From positions 294-64,293 of the forward strand of contig JANWVM010000008.1 of the NCBI GenBank assembly GCA_025056115.1: a DNA stretch of 64,000 nt. Direction: 5' to 3'. The position numbers were made by a program, and so were the translations under genes. The notes under the pieces are model-generated. The model was given only the letters and a program-made list of their open reading frames with translations. It searched no databases and was not told the origin of the DNA. Positions 51,951 to 57,486 of this stretch are shown here, piece by piece (within the stretch, counting starts at the first letter, position 1; the number at the start of each line of letters is the position of its first letter). This DNA is from Gloeomargarita sp. SKYG116. GTDB lineage: Bacteria; Cyanobacteriota; Cyanobacteriia; Gloeomargaritales; Gloeomargaritaceae.

Positions 51951-52070
51951 CCTGGTCACCCGGCTATTCATAACATCCCTGATAGTTTTTATGGTACACG
52001 AAATTCAAAATGACTGGCAGTAAGAGTGGTATCATGCCCTATGACCATGACCCACGACCGTTAGTCCACC

Positions 52071-54356
52071 ATGACCCAAGCGCCTGAACGCCCGCTAGCA
52101 ACCACTGACGCTGCCTTGGAAGCCGAACTTGACCACCGGATGAGCCGCTACGGTCTGAATCCCTGCGTCACTGCCGACACCTGGGTCCAAACCGAATGGG
52201 GAGCGCGACAGGTCAAGGAACTCATCAGCCAGCCGCACGGGACGTATGTGCATGGGAAGCTGTTCCAAACGACACCGGCGGGTTTTTTCTGTAGTGGGAT
52301 GCAGCCCGTGTTTCGGCTCCACACCTGGGAGGGTTACTGCCTGCGTTTGACCGCCAACCATCCTGTGCTCAAAGTCATTCGGCAAACGACGCAACGCCAG
52401 GACTGTGCGTGGGTTGCAGCAGCGCATCTTCAGCCGGGTGACCTCATCTGCTTGCACAACCACCGGGGGATGCCGCCTTGGTCGGGCGTAGGTACCTGGG
52501 CCCAGGGCTGGTTGCTAGGCAATTTCATGGGCGATGGTTGTTTGTCGGAATACGTACCCAGTCATGGACGGCGAGGCCATTTGCGATACTGGGGCGAACA
52601 CCAAGTCATGATGGCTGAGTTTGCCCAGGCCCTTTGTCAATCGGTTTTCCCTGATTTTTCCAGCCAAATTTTACGAAATCATCCCCAGAACTGCTACAGT
52701 GAAGTAGGAAGGGCTCGTTTATTCCATCTGGCTGCATCTTACGGATTAGGTAAAGGCCGCAAAATTATTACACCAGCCATTGAACGCGCCAGTTATGAAT
52801 TCTACCAGGGCTTTCTAGGGGGATTTTTTGATGCTGATGGCAGTGTCCAAGGCGACCAGACCAAAGGGGTCAGCGTGCGGTTAGCCCACAGCGACCTGGA
52901 ACGGTTGCGGGCGGTGCAGCGCATGTTGCTCCGGTTGGGCATTGTTTCAACGCTCTCCATCAACCGGCGTCCAGCCCATACCCGTTTATTGCCTAATTCC
53001 CAACGACAACGGGTTGCCTATCCCTGTCGGGCGCAACACGAGCTGGTCATTAGCGGTGACAATTTGCAGGAGTTTCAGCGGTTGATTGGGTTTCGTGACC
53101 CTGACAAAGCAACTCGTTTAGCCACGTTACTTGAACGATACCAACGGCACCTGAACCGTGAGCGATTTACGGCAACCGTCATGGCCTTGGTTCCAGATGG
53201 TGAAGAGCTAGTTTACGACTGCTCTGTCCCAGGCGCTAATTGTTTTGATGCCAATGGGTTGGTTGTGCATAACTGCGGCGAAATTATCGGTGCTGATTTT
53301 CACTGTAACCTATCTGAAATTCACTTAAACCGGATTGATCCCCATAACTTTGAAGAGCAGGAAAAAGCCTTTACCGCTGGCGCTCTGACAGTAGCAGCCC
53401 TGTTGCACCACCGGTTTGTGGAGCCGCGTTTTCAGTACTCGCGAGAGATTGACCCGATTGTGGGGGTGTCGTTTACGGGGTTGTTTGATTTCTTTGTGCA
53501 TGCCTTTGGCAAGGAATGGCTCCAGTGGTGGGCGGCGGGACGACCCGATAGCGAGCTGGGCTTGATTTTGCGCCAGAAGGAGGCCGACTATCTCACGTTT
53601 TGGAAAGAAGTCGTGCATCGGGTGGTGTGGGATTACTGCGACCGGCATGGGTTACGGCGGCCCAATCGCTGTACGACGGTGCAACCGGCGGGTACCAAAA
53701 GTCTGCTTACAAATGCGTCGCCGGGGTGGCATCCCCCCAAAGCCCAGCGCTACATCCGTCGTATCACATTTGCCAAAAACGACCCGGTGGCCCTGGCCTG
53801 CATGGATTACGGCTATAGCGTGGTGCCAGGTCAAGCCGATAAGGACGAGCAGGGGCACTTACTCAATGACCCCTTTGACCCGCGCTGCACCGAATGGCTG
53901 GTGGAAATTCCAGTGGCGGTCTCCTGGGCGGACATTGCCGACGAGGCGGGGGTGGACATCAGTCAATTCAGCGCCCTAGCCCAATTCGATTTCTACATGA
54001 ATGTCCAGCGCCACTACACCACCCACAACACATCGGCGACGATTGAGTTCCGCGAGCATGAGATTGAGCAACTCGCCGACCGGATTTACCAGGCGATTCA
54101 GCACGATGAGGGCTATATCAGCGCCGCATTGCTGGCCCGGTTCGATGCGCTGCAAACCTTTCCCCGGTTGCCCTTTGAACCGATTAGCAAAGAACGCTAC
54201 GAAGCGCTGATGCAACAGGTGCTCCAACGACGCAAATCGGATGACTTCGGGGCGTTGTTGCGCCAGTACGACCAACCCCAGGTGCCCTTGACGCCGGAGG
54301 TGGCCGCCTGCGAAGGGATGACCTGCGAGACACCTAGCCAGCCACCAGCGACCTAG
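52071..54356 (+). CDS. nrdJ: C-terminal half of adenosylcobalamin-dependent (class II) ribonucleotide reductase containing a complete intein
   Basis: N-extein only MTQAPERPLATTDAALEAELDHRMSRYGLNP; C-extein CGEIIGADFHCNLSEIHLNRIDPHNFEEQEKAF...TVQPAGTKSLLTNASPGWHPPKAQRYIRR. In-frame TAG at 52062-52064 just upstream of the start. Confidence 0.85.
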   Translation: MTQAPERPLATTDAALEAELDHRMSRYGLNPCVTADTWVQTEWGARQVKELISQPHGTYVHGKLFQTTPAGFFCSGMQPVFRLHTWEGYCLRLTANHPVLKVIRQTTQRQDCAWVAAAHLQPGDLICLHNHRGMPPWSGVGTWAQGWLLGNFMGDGCLSEYVPSHGRRGHLRYWGEHQVMMAEFAQALCQSVFPDFSSQILRNHPQNCYSEVGRARLFHLAASYGLGKGRKIITPAIERASYEFYQGFLGGFFDADGSVQGDQTKGVSVRLAHSDLERLRAVQRMLLRLGIVSTLSINRRPAHTRLLPNSQRQRVAYPCRAQHELVISGDNLQEFQRLIGFRDPDKATRLATLLERYQRHLNRERFTATVMALVPDGEELVYDCSVPGANCFDANGLVVHNCGEIIGADFHCNLSEIHLNRIDPHNFEEQEKAFTAGALTVAALLHHRFVEPRFQYSREIDPIVGVSFTGLFDFFVHAFGKEWLQWWAAGRPDSELGLILRQKEADYLTFWKEVVHRVVWDYCDRHGLRRPNRCTTVQPAGTKSLLTNASPGWHPPKAQRYIRRITFAKNDPVALACMDYGYSVVPGQADKDEQGHLLNDPFDPRCTEWLVEIPVAVSWADIADEAGVDISQFSALAQFDFYMNVQRHYTTHNTSATIEFREHEIEQLADRIYQAIQHDEGYISAALLARFDALQTFPRLPFEPISKERYEALMQQVLQRRKSDDFGALLRQYDQPQVPLTPEVAACEGMTCETPSQPPAT
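52164..53273 (+). mobile_element. Intein with LAGLIDADG homing endonuclease domain inside nrdJ (~370 aa)
   Basis: Starts CVTADTWVQTEWGARQVKELI (block A), dodecapeptides LLGNFMGDGCL and FLGGFFDADGSV, ends CFDANGLVVHN|C (canonical His-Asn then Cys+1). Confidence 0.9.
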
Positions 54357-54361
54357 AAACC

Positions 54362-54931
54362 ATGTCCCCCTTGCGCTTGATGGTGGGCTTGGGGAATCCA
54401 GGGGCCAAGTACGAGCGCACACGACACAACGTGGGATTTATGGCGGTGGACGCCTTGGCGGGCCGGTGGGGATTGGCGTGGCGGGAAAAATCCCAGTGGC
54501 ACGGTTGGGTCGCCGAAGGCCAAGGGATTGTGCTGCTGAAGCCGAATACTTATATGAATCACTCTGGCCAGGCGGTTCAGGCGGTCTGTCGCTGGTTCAA
54601 GTTCACTCCCCGCGAAATCCTAGTTATTTACGACGACTTGGACTTGCCCTTTGGCCGGTTGCGCCTGCGTAAACAGGGTTCTGCCGGCGGGCACAACGGG
54701 ATGAAATCCATCATTGCTCACTTAGGGACCCAAGAATTTCCCCGGTTGCGCATCGGCATCGGTCGCCCAGTGGTGGGAGAGAGCGCCCACTACGTATTGG
54801 AACCCTTCAGCCCTGAACAGCAGGCGCTTTTGCCCCGCCTCCTAAACGAAGTGGTGCGCGTTGTTGAGCTGGCGTTGCGGGAAGGACTGGACCAGGCGAT
54901 GAATATCGGCAACGCCCTGGTCATTACCTAA
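54362..54931 (+). CDS. pth: Aminoacyl-tRNA (peptidyl-tRNA) hydrolase
   Basis: LMVGLGNPGAKYERTRHNVGFMAVDALA...LLKPNTYMNHSGQAV...DDLDLPFGRLRLRKQGSAGGHNGMKSI. Confidence 0.94.
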   Translation: MSPLRLMVGLGNPGAKYERTRHNVGFMAVDALAGRWGLAWREKSQWHGWVAEGQGIVLLKPNTYMNHSGQAVQAVCRWFKFTPREILVIYDDLDLPFGRLRLRKQGSAGGHNGMKSIIAHLGTQEFPRLRIGIGRPVVGESAHYVLEPFSPEQQALLPRLLNEVVRVVELALREGLDQAMNIGNALVIT

Positions 54932-55316
54932 ACTGCAATGCGCCTTTATTCTCCCCCTCGAAGGTCTGGAGTTGCGCCTGCAACCGGTTTTGCAACCCTT
55001 GGCACACCAACTCGCACATGGGCAGGATAATCGGGTCGCTGATCCGGTAGTACACCTGTACTCCCTGGGGTTGCCGTTGCACCATCCCCGCCTGGGTGAG
55101 AATTTTTAAGTGCTTGGATACATTCGCTTGCCCCAATCCCGTCGCCGCCATGATCTCCGATACGTTTTTAGGGCCGTCCTTGAGCGCGCAGAGCACCTGC
55201 AGCCGGCTCACTTCCGATAACACTTTGAAGTAGTCGGCCACTTGCTCCAGGACCGCCACTGACATCGTCGCCATACACTGCCCCGCCATCGCTTCCTTAA
55301 CCTCAGCATAACCCAT
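54924..55316 (-). CDS. ArsR-family repressor, candidate persulfide sensor (BigR/SqrR-like)
   Basis: YFKVLSEVSRLQVLCALKDGPKNVSEIMAATGLGQANVSKHLKILTQAGMVQRQPQGVQVYYRISDPIILPMCELVCQGL; divergent from sulfur cassette. Confidence 0.75.
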   Translation of the reverse strand: MGYAEVKEAMAGQCMATMSVAVLEQVADYFKVLSEVSRLQVLCALKDGPKNVSEIMAATGLGQANVSKHLKILTQAGMVQRQPQGVQVYYRISDPIILPMCELVCQGLQNRLQAQLQTFEGENKGALQFR

Positions 55317-55334
55317 CTATGGCTTGCATAAATT

Positions 55335-55352
55335 ATTATATAGTTATACAAT
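55335..55352. promoter_or_regulatory. 18-bp near-perfect palindrome ATTATATA-GT-TATACAAT, candidate operator
   Basis: 8+2+8 inverted repeat with one mismatch, between divergent ArsR and MBL genes. Confidence 0.6.
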
Positions 55353-55383
55353 TACAATAAAGACAGAAGGGAGGGCAGAAGCG

Positions 55384-56076
55384 ATGCTATTTCGGCAGCT
55401 ATACGACCGGGAGACCTGGACCTATAGTTACCTGATTGCCGACCCGGATACGAAAGAAGCGGCGCTGGTGGACTCGGTGTTAGAGCAGGTGGAGCGGGAT
55501 GTACAGTTATTGCGGGAGTTGGGGTTGACCTTGCGTTATGCCATAGAGACCCATGTCCACGCTGACCACATCACCGGCGCGGGCAAGTTACGGGAAATCA
55601 CAGGTTGCCAGACGGTGGTGCCGGTGGGGGCCAAAGCTGAGTGTGCCGACCGGTTCATCGCCGATGGAGAGGTACTCCAGGTGGGCAAGGTTCCCATCCA
55701 GGCAATCGCCACGCTGGGGCACACCGACAGCCACATGGCCTACTTGGTCAACGGCACGCACTTGCTCACGGGCGATTCCCTGTTTATCCGGGGCTGTGGG
55801 CGGACGGACTTCCAAAGCGGCGACCCAGGATTGCTCTACGATGCGATTACCCAGCGCCTATTTACCTTGCCGGACGAGACGCTCGTGTACCCGGGACATG
55901 ACTATCGGGGTCACACAGTTTCTACCATTGGCGAAGAAAAACGCTGGAACCCGCGCCTGGCTGGGAAGTCGCGCGACGAGTTCATTGCCCTCATGAACAG
56001 CTTGAACCTGCCGGACCCGAAAAAGATTGCCGAAGCCGTACCGGCCAACGAACGCTGCGGTTTGGTGAGCGTGTAG
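55384..56076 (+). CDS. MBL-fold hydrolase, persulfide dioxygenase (ETHE1/Blh)-like
   Basis: MLFRQLYDRETWTYSYLIADPDTKEAALVDSVLEQVERD...ETHVHADHITGAGKLRE...GHTDSHMAYLV..LLTGDSLFIRGCGRTDFQSGD...YPGHDYRGHTVSTIGEEK. Confidence 0.9.
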   Translation: MLFRQLYDRETWTYSYLIADPDTKEAALVDSVLEQVERDVQLLRELGLTLRYAIETHVHADHITGAGKLREITGCQTVVPVGAKAECADRFIADGEVLQVGKVPIQAIATLGHTDSHMAYLVNGTHLLTGDSLFIRGCGRTDFQSGDPGLLYDAITQRLFTLPDETLVYPGHDYRGHTVSTIGEEKRWNPRLAGKSRDEFIALMNSLNLPDPKKIAEAVPANERCGLVSV

Positions 56077-56089
56077 GGAGGTGTAAGTC

Positions 56090-56653
56090 ATGACGCAAGT
56101 GCAAACGACCACACCAGGAATTCAGTGCTGGGATGCGGCCACCCTGAAGGCGGAATGGGACGCTGGACGGGTGTGGCTAGTGGATGTGCGGGAACCAGTG
56201 GAGTACGCCGAGGAGCGGATTCCAGGGGCGATTTGCCATCCCCTGTCCAAGTTCAATCCCGCTGAAATCAAATGCCCCGACGATAAGGTCATGGTGCTGT
56301 ATTGCCGGTCGGGGAATCGTTCCTACCGGGCAGCGCAGCAGTTACTGGCGGCGGGGTGTGAGCAGGTGACCCATTTGCAGGGCGGCATCATGGCCTGGAA
56401 ACAACAGGGCTATCCTGTGGAGCGTAACCCCAAAGCCCCCATCAGCCTGTTCCGCCAGGTGCAAATTGTGGCCGGTTCGCTAGTTTTGCTGGGGACAATT
56501 CTGGGGGCTACGGTCTCGCCTTGGTTCCTGTTGCTCAGTGGGTTTGTGGGAGCAGGGCTAGTATTCGCCGGCGTGACCAACACCTGTGCGCTGGGGATAC
56601 TCCTGGCGCAGTTGCCCTATAACAAGCGAGCAGGTCAATCGTGGCAGTCCTAG
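56090..56653 (+). CDS. Rhodanese-like domain protein with C-terminal DUF2892-like TM pair
   Basis: VWLVDVREPVEYAEERIPGAICHPLSKF...VLYCRSGNRSYRAAQQLLAAG...LQGGIMAWKQQGYPV; YCRSGNR loop. Confidence 0.9.
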   Translation: MTQVQTTTPGIQCWDAATLKAEWDAGRVWLVDVREPVEYAEERIPGAICHPLSKFNPAEIKCPDDKVMVLYCRSGNRSYRAAQQLLAAGCEQVTHLQGGIMAWKQQGYPVERNPKAPISLFRQVQIVAGSLVLLGTILGATVSPWFLLLSGFVGAGLVFAGVTNTCALGILLAQLPYNKRAGQSWQS

Positions 56654-57486
56654 TCGGCTATGCCCTAGCGATACTCATTGGCCTAAGCCTGGGGTTACTC
56701 GGGGGCGGCGGTTCAGTGCTGGCCTTACCAGTGCTGGTGTACGTGGTAGGCATTGCCCCTAAAGTCGCTGTCCCCATGACCCTAGTAGTGGTCGGTGCCG
56801 TGAGCCTGCTGGGAGCGATTCCCCATATCCGCCGGGGTAATGTCGCCGGGCGGGCCGGAGTGGTGTTTGGCGGTGCGACGATGGTGGGAGCCTATGGAGG
56901 CGCACGCTTGGCCACCTTGCCGTTCATCACCGATACGGTCCAGATGACCCTGTTTGCCGTGGCAATGCTGGTGGCAGCGGGGTTGATGATCCGGCGTCGC
57001 CCTCCTGCTCCTGAACTCACCGGCCCCTATGTCCCGCCCGTTTGTCCCTACTGCTGGTTGTGGTTGCCGACGGAAGGGTTGCTGGTGGGTATGCTAACTG
57101 GACTGGTAGGCGTGGGCGGCGGTTTTGCCATTGTGCCGGCGTTAGTGTTACTGGCCAACATCCCCATGAAACAGGCGATTGGCACGTCGTTGTTAATCAT
57201 TGCGGCTAATTCCCTAGCCGGTTTAGCGGGTTATCTAGGGCATGTGCATCTGGACTGGCATTTGACGGTCAATTTCACGCTTTTGGCCGGCATCGGAACA
57301 GTGGCAGGAGCTTATTTGGCGCAGTTTATCCATCCGGCCCACTTGCAAAAAGGGTTTGGGTATTTTCTGTTGGCAATTGCTGCACTGGTGCTCTGGCAAA
57401 ATCAACAACCCCGCAAGCAAAGTTATGTGCCGCTAGTTGCACCCGCTGCGCGGGCTAATCCGTTTGGGCCAAGTGCTGGCGGATAG
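56641..57486 (+). CDS. TauE/SafE family sulfite/anion exporter
   Basis: LGLLGGGGSVLALPVLVYVVGIAPKVAVPMTLVVVGAVSLLGAIPHIRRGNV...GLVGVGGGFAIVPALVLLANIPMKQAIGTSLLIIAANSLAG. Confidence 0.9.
   Translation: MAVLVGYALAILIGLSLGLLGGGGSVLALPVLVYVVGIAPKVAVPMTLVVVGAVSLLGAIPHIRRGNVAGRAGVVFGGATMVGAYGGARLATLPFITDTVQMTLFAVAMLVAAGLMIRRRPPAPELTGPYVPPVCPYCWLWLPTEGLLVGMLTGLVGVGGGFAIVPALVLLANIPMKQAIGTSLLIIAANSLAGLAGYLGHVHLDWHLTVNFTLLAGIGTVAGAYLAQFIHPAHLQKGFGYFLLAIAALVLWQNQQPRKQSYVPLVAPAARANPFGPSAGG

Follow-up and report, generated by a model that had tools for sequence, protein, structure and literature searches.

Whether a gene for half of an enzyme can serve a living cell is the question raised by nrdJ of the cyanobacterium Gloeomargarita sp. 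SKYG116. The ten-stranded barrel of ribonucleotide reductase (RNR), an essential enzyme, is viewed as two half-barrels joined by a finger loop. In the window, that is, the whole stretch of 64,000 nucleotides analyzed here (contig JANWVM010000008.1, positions 294 to 64,293), an open reading frame (ORF) of 761 amino acids (aa) on the forward strand (52071–54356) begins with MTQAPERPLATTDAALEAELDHRMSRYGLNP, continues with a 370-aa intein, and then enters the motif CGEI of the finger loop. The family profile TIGR02505 is matched at positions 375–721 of 724 only. Hence, the gene encodes just the C-terminal half (C-half) of a class II RNR, as had been claimed in an earlier reading made from the sequence alone (the sequence-only reading). 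The same reading had noted an in-frame TAG two codons ahead of the ATG (52062–52064) and only minus-strand genes upstream; both are found as described, and no sequence coding for the N-terminal half (N-half) lies upstream of the C-half within the window. The window gene is very probably one half of a genuine two-gene split-barrel class II RNR, a B12-dependent enzyme of the RTPR type, and the split is conserved in the genus.

Two complementary half-genes in Gloeomargarita

The genome of the window (G000) was searched with TIGR02505, which was chosen as the probe because PF02867 scores this type of NrdJ below its cut-off and barely recognizes RTPR-type NrdJ even when it is intact (19 bits). The profile matches two places, the window gene and C111:106492–107526 on the minus strand, the latter with profile positions 42–348 and without stops. 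Thus, the N-half is a separate gene on another contig (C111:106417–107602), as the sequence-only reading had supposed, and this arrangement is fixed in the genus. The genus members (G000–G006) were drawn from the 31 genomes nearest to the window. Herein, the C-half occurs in all seven and the N-half in six, and every member with both halves (G000 and G001–G005) has them as separate genes. Two genomes consist of a single contig, in which the halves lie ~2.4 Mb (G002, 3,162,419 bp) and ~0.7 Mb (G005, 3,049,282 bp) apart, as taken from the coordinates. Since 7/7 genomes, these two included, carry this gene with an identical start (MTQAPER), the misassembly that had been considered at this boundary is not the cause.

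Taken together, the halves cover the family profile over its whole length: in G003, the N-half matches positions 23–347 and the intein-free C-half positions 364–721 of 724. The C-half scores 387 bits against a cut-off of 340, the N-half 300 bits (below the cut-off), and the intact protein of G007 695 bits. G007, a metagenome-assembled genome (MAG) of Gloeomargaritaceae, belongs to a sister genus and is the closest outgroup; its intact gene has a frame of 797 aa, 778 aa of which follow from the ATG. N-half and C-half tile this 778-aa protein, with a few residues unaccounted for. In separate trees of the N-half and the C-half, the genus forms one clade (support 100/99 and 99/98) that is sister to the intact G007 protein (locus L053; genus plus L053, 100/100). 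As both trees agree, the halves descend from one ancestral gene. Whether splits occur elsewhere was judged on GTDB contigs at one genome per species, from which the 80 best-ranking C-half relatives were taken. The N-half is found in the same locus in 78 of these 80 nrdJ loci, and the two exceptions are the two Gloeomargarita loci.

Pairwise ratios of nonsynonymous to synonymous substitution rates (dN/dS) amount to 0.02–0.12 for both halves across the genus, wherever dS was estimable, which corresponds to strong purifying selection. No other RNR was detected in G001–G006 by PF02867, PF00268, or PF13597, nor was a second TIGR02505 gene; in G000, the search revealed no full-length nrdJ at another place. 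A scan upstream of both halves for boxes of NrdR, the usual RNR repressor, found nothing, and NrdR itself (TIGR00244) was undetected in 7/7 genus genomes, with Synechococcus elongatus as a positive control.

Candidates for a split outside the genus did not hold. In G015, two adjacent ORFs (397 and 437 aa) resembled an intermediate; they overlap in different frames and the protein reads across, which denotes a frameshift. In G016 and the loci L099, L118, L119, L124, and L129, nrdJ is interrupted at CGEI; the N-half is nonetheless encoded in the same locus and ends directly ahead of the break. The nrdJ genes of these cyanobacteria (G016:C1:1160814–1164772, i.e., L040, and the five loci named) carry an insertion of ~300–500 bp without an ORF in the CGEI codons, and no Rfam intron matched at the gathering threshold in the three that were scanned (L040, L119, and L124).

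Position of the split and architecture of the halves

The N-halves comprise 388–398 aa (370 aa readable in G000) and, in the alignment with intact G007, run through FLELYNTDPQQARGYLRELLLA before ending in a short nonconserved tail. The C-halves comprise 390–392 aa without inteins and consist of MTQAPER, a short variable stretch, and then ALEAELDHRMSRYGLNPCGEI. At this joint, the intact G007 protein reads FLEAYGQGEALTFFRTLNPQMSEQELSHRLGRYGLNPCGEI. The split site falls in a variable linker that immediately precedes the finger loop and its catalytic Cys. The joint segment is wholly missing in the loci L077, L079, L088, L107, and L120 of other cyanobacteria (IQWAGEAERRAQGEGRYGLNPCGE); therefore, it represents a dispensable linker. 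An AlphaFold2 model of an intact relative (mean predicted local distance difference test score 74, predicted template modeling score 0.79) contains helices at 388–395 and 401–408, and the split falls into the predicted loop between them. The best PDB match of this model is the RTPR of L. leichmannii (1L1L; E 6.6e-24), with a modest template modeling score of 0.53. The finger loop sits between two five-stranded barrel halves (PMC9669993); hence, the cut divides the barrel. A split at the half-barrel boundary, at another position than in the NrdJa/NrdJb pair of Pseudomonas, had been proposed by the sequence-only reading, and this is supported: the cut precedes the finger loop, and the genes are unlinked.

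In the numbering of 1L1L, the aligned regions are 28–337 for the N-half and 404–736 for the C-half. The latter starts shortly before 404 and carries N406, C408, E410, C419, and C731/C736, with NPCGE aligned to 1L1L 406–410 and thus the NxCxE finger loop of RTPR-type class II RNRs. The Cys residues C419 and C731/C736 are placed in the C-half by alignment, and the counterpart of C119 in the N-half by context only. The N-half contains the insertion domain and an invariant Cys in the motif NCTS; by its context, this Cys would be the C119 equivalent; the alignment is gapped there. The coordinates in the window are compiled in Table 1.

Table 1. Features of the C-half locus in the window
Feature	Coordinates	Strand	Description
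TATCAT, −10-like element	52030..52035	+	~36–41 nucleotides 5' of the C-half ATG; TATCATG context in 6/7 genus genomes (G004: TATGATA)
TAG, in frame	52062..52064	+	Upstream of the C-half ATG, two codons between
nrdJ C-half gene	52071..54356	+	Encodes the finger loop plus the second half-barrel (RTPR-type class II RNR); 391 aa after intein removal
N-extein of the C-half	52071..52163	+	Starts with MTQAPER (kept in the genus), ends with ELDHRMSRYGLNP; run-in to the finger loop
Intein	52164..53273	+	370 aa, LAGLIDADG homing endonuclease, inserted at LNP^CGEI
Finger-loop CGEI	53274..53285	+	NP at 52158–52163; catalytic Cys/Glu correspond to C408/E410 of L. leichmannii RTPR (1L1L); alignment to 1L1L 404–410
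Cys of FHCNL	53304..53306	+	Equivalent to redox-active C419 of 1L1L, by alignment
CEGMTC at the C terminus	54309..54326	+	CxxxxC redox shuttle pair, C731/C736 of 1L1L, by sequence and alignment
pth (peptidyl-tRNA hydrolase)	54362..54931	+	Direct downstream neighbor; adjoins the C-half in both other genus loci tested

Upstream of the N-half, a −10-like element, TATAGTG, is conserved; the promoter-like elements of the two halves are also given as TATCATG and TATAGTGCT. In three species (G000, G001, and G003), the stop codon of the N-half and the start codon of the following gene overlap (ATGTTGA). None of pth, uvrA, yggS, or the holin-like gene was found near nrdJ in the outgroup loci, which thus do not indicate the ancestral place of either half.

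The N-extein of the C-half comprises 31 residues, the last of which are RYGLNP, so that the complete and contiguous intein begins ~30 codons past the gene start. It matches LAGLIDADG_3 and intein_Cterm, and Intein_splicing with 34.9 bits just under the cut-off of 35.8. At LNP^C, the intein is missing in G003 and G004; hence, it is not required for the split state. Four intein sites occur in the split genes, namely NIRR^S in the N-half (G004) and LNP^C, H^C(NL), and QPAG^T in C-halves (L038, L045, L042, and L044), and both half-genes have therefore remained intein targets after the split. Between the window (52164–57286) and G001:C13 (L041, L131), DNA identity rises from ~75–85% to 95–100% at the 5' end of the intein or no more than ~50 bp away from it. 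Identity above 90% persists for ~5.2 kb through the intein, the C-half, pth, and the following genes; the N-half region of the two species is only ~76–84% identical. The jump suggests a recent exchange with the intein as its anchor, possibly through homing and co-conversion; it may also stem from a chimeric assembly.

Alternative explanations for the half-gene

Inteins and introns are particularly frequent in the RNR gene, as the cyanobacterial nrdJ genes of this set illustrate with inteins at NIRR^S, LNP^C, H^C, and QPAG^T as well as non-ORF insertions in the CGEI codons. Thus, trans-splicing, by a split intein in the protein or a split intron in the RNA, might rejoin the halves into one chain. 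The gene ends make this very unlikely: the N-halves terminate in short variable tails (LRELLLAQGS and RSCSEDRQAPC, each followed by the stop) that lack an intein N-block, and the C-halves begin with MTQAPER and lack an intein C-block. Moreover, the stop of the N-half overlaps the next gene, a promoter-like element lies ~40 nucleotides 5' of the C-half ATG, and the joint coincides with none of the intein sites seen. Rfam detected no group I or II intron at the gathering threshold in the flanks tested, which is a weak argument as the loci with in-gene insertions also gave none.

The sequence-only reading had named as its alternative that the window gene is a remnant; herein, it would decay after rearrangement of nrdJ while another RNR does the work. 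The N-half of G000 is indeed frameshifted as assembled, and the G000 MAG holds fragments of a class I enzyme, namely an NrdA piece on C94 (L001; 610 bp, 56% G+C) and an NrdB piece on C170 (L050; ~501 bp, 44% G+C). The PF02867 match on C94, which is this NrdA piece on its 610-bp contig, was rejected as a relevant RNR. It is less than 60% identical to anything in the plasmid collection. Because of their tiny contigs, their deviating G+C content, and the lack of a counterpart in the genus, both fragments are most likely contaminants. Against decay stand the dN/dS of ~0.02–0.12 in both halves genus-wide and the finding that six other genus genomes contain no detectable class I, class III, or second class II RNR. 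Selection and the absence of alternatives largely refute this explanation, which is accordingly considered highly improbable. It is more improbable still that one half suffices for catalysis, or that the halves have diverged in function and no longer assemble. Gene fission can precede divergence, and nothing specific points to it here. The catalytic residues are divided, with the finger-loop Cys/Glu, a redox Cys, and CxxxxC in the C-half and the NCTS Cys and insertion domain in the N-half; both halves are highly identical to the intact outgroup protein, and no other RNR was found.

Some observations weigh against a two-gene enzyme conserved in the genus. In G006, which is 83% complete, only the C-half and no N-half was found. 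The −10-like elements upstream of both halves were judged by eye and not statistically. Last, the N-half of G000 contains a single extra T at C111 ~107525 (L033 ~2527), ~24 codons past the ATG and shortly after FFRTYSRR (CGCCGGGTTCAATGGG as compared with CGCCGGGTCAATGGG in G003), which shifts the first ~24 codons out of frame. This T is not present in G001–G005. As the remainder of the G000 N-half is open and constrained (dN/dS 0.044 vs G001), the T appears to be an assembly error or a very recent mutation, and the genus-wide conclusion is independent of it.

A proposed barrel from two chains and its known counterparts

In the proposed scenario, an intact ancestral nrdJ would have been broken in a variable surface linker between the first barrel half and the finger loop, after Gloeomargarita had separated from its sister genus. 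Each half would have gained a start or a stop of its own together with a promoter-like element, and the halves lie at unlinked chromosomal places. Where an intein is present, the C-half precursor would splice it out first. The N-half would then supply the first half-barrel, the insertion/specificity domain, and one redox Cys, and the C-half the finger-loop thiyl Cys, the second half-barrel, the second redox Cys, and the CxxxxC tail. The half-barrels most likely bind to each other noncovalently and form one ten-stranded barrel with a composite active site. The disulfide that arises in each turnover would then link two Cys on different chains; assembly, activity, and the interchain disulfide are inferred. 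Probably, this is the first cellular RNR with a barrel made from two half-barrel proteins of unlinked genes and the sole RNR of its genus, with DNA synthesis depending on the pairing of chains and an interchain disulfide in each turnover. Among the known living organisms, Gloeomargarita is the one most closely related to plastids. An enzyme that is naturally cut at this joint and fixed in a free-living lineage without a detected back-up RNR would make the half-barrel idea directly testable, including the question of whether barrel, B12 site, and thiyl radical chemistry re-form from two halves.

In the open-licence papers searched, no link of Gloeomargarita to a split RNR was found. Split inteins are known from fractured genes, among them metagenomic NrdJ cases in which the RNR gene is broken in two close to an intein site (cited in PMC3653736). 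In contrast, Gloeomargarita has no split-intein pieces, and the C-half intein is whole. The L. leichmannii RTPR (1L1L) and the intact cyanobacterial NrdJ share the family TIGR02505 and the catalytic motifs but are single chains. The nrdJ-a/nrdJ-b of Thermus phage phiYS40 likewise form a class II RNR of two ORFs (PMC3653736); these are consecutive with a gap of 12 nucleotides, and the first ORF (797 aa) contains NPCGE around residue 439, whereas the second encodes a Cys-containing tail of 199 aa. Hence, the phiYS40 barrel is undivided.

NrdJa/NrdJb of Pseudomonas and other Proteobacteria is a cellular class II RNR of two polypeptides as well, and it has been called the only split RNR in a nonviral organism (PMC4520616), a view that the Gloeomargarita enzyme would correct. 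NrdJa keeps the whole barrel with the B12 and effector sites, NrdJb serves mainly in thiol exchange, and both are encoded in one operon (PMC4520616). In Gloeomargarita, by contrast, the split precedes the finger loop, the barrel is divided, and the genes are unlinked.

The closest precedent is the class Ia NrdA-a/NrdA-b of phage Aeh1 ("genes in pieces"), in which the barrel is split into two polypeptides that are reported to be fully active, with no splicing (PMC2988022, PMC3653736). Both systems encode the catalytic barrel separately as two half-barrel polypeptides cut beside the finger loop, and the joint lacks a splicing element in each system. In Aeh1, the genes are contiguous and were split by the adjacent homing endonuclease gene mobE; in Gloeomargarita, no homing endonuclease gene was seen at the N-half end or the C-half start, the only one lying inside the intein. 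The Aeh1 enzyme is a class I RNR of a phage, whereas that of Gloeomargarita is a cellular class II RNR with unlinked chromosomal genes, which is fixed in a genus and apparently its sole RNR. Judging from its record, NrdA-a holds NLCIE near its end, which places the Aeh1 cut just after the finger-loop Cys and not just before it as in Gloeomargarita. Aeh1 is thus the mechanistic analogue, a mirror image in which the cut flanks the finger loop on its opposite side, and the Gloeomargarita split would be its unlinked chromosomal counterpart.
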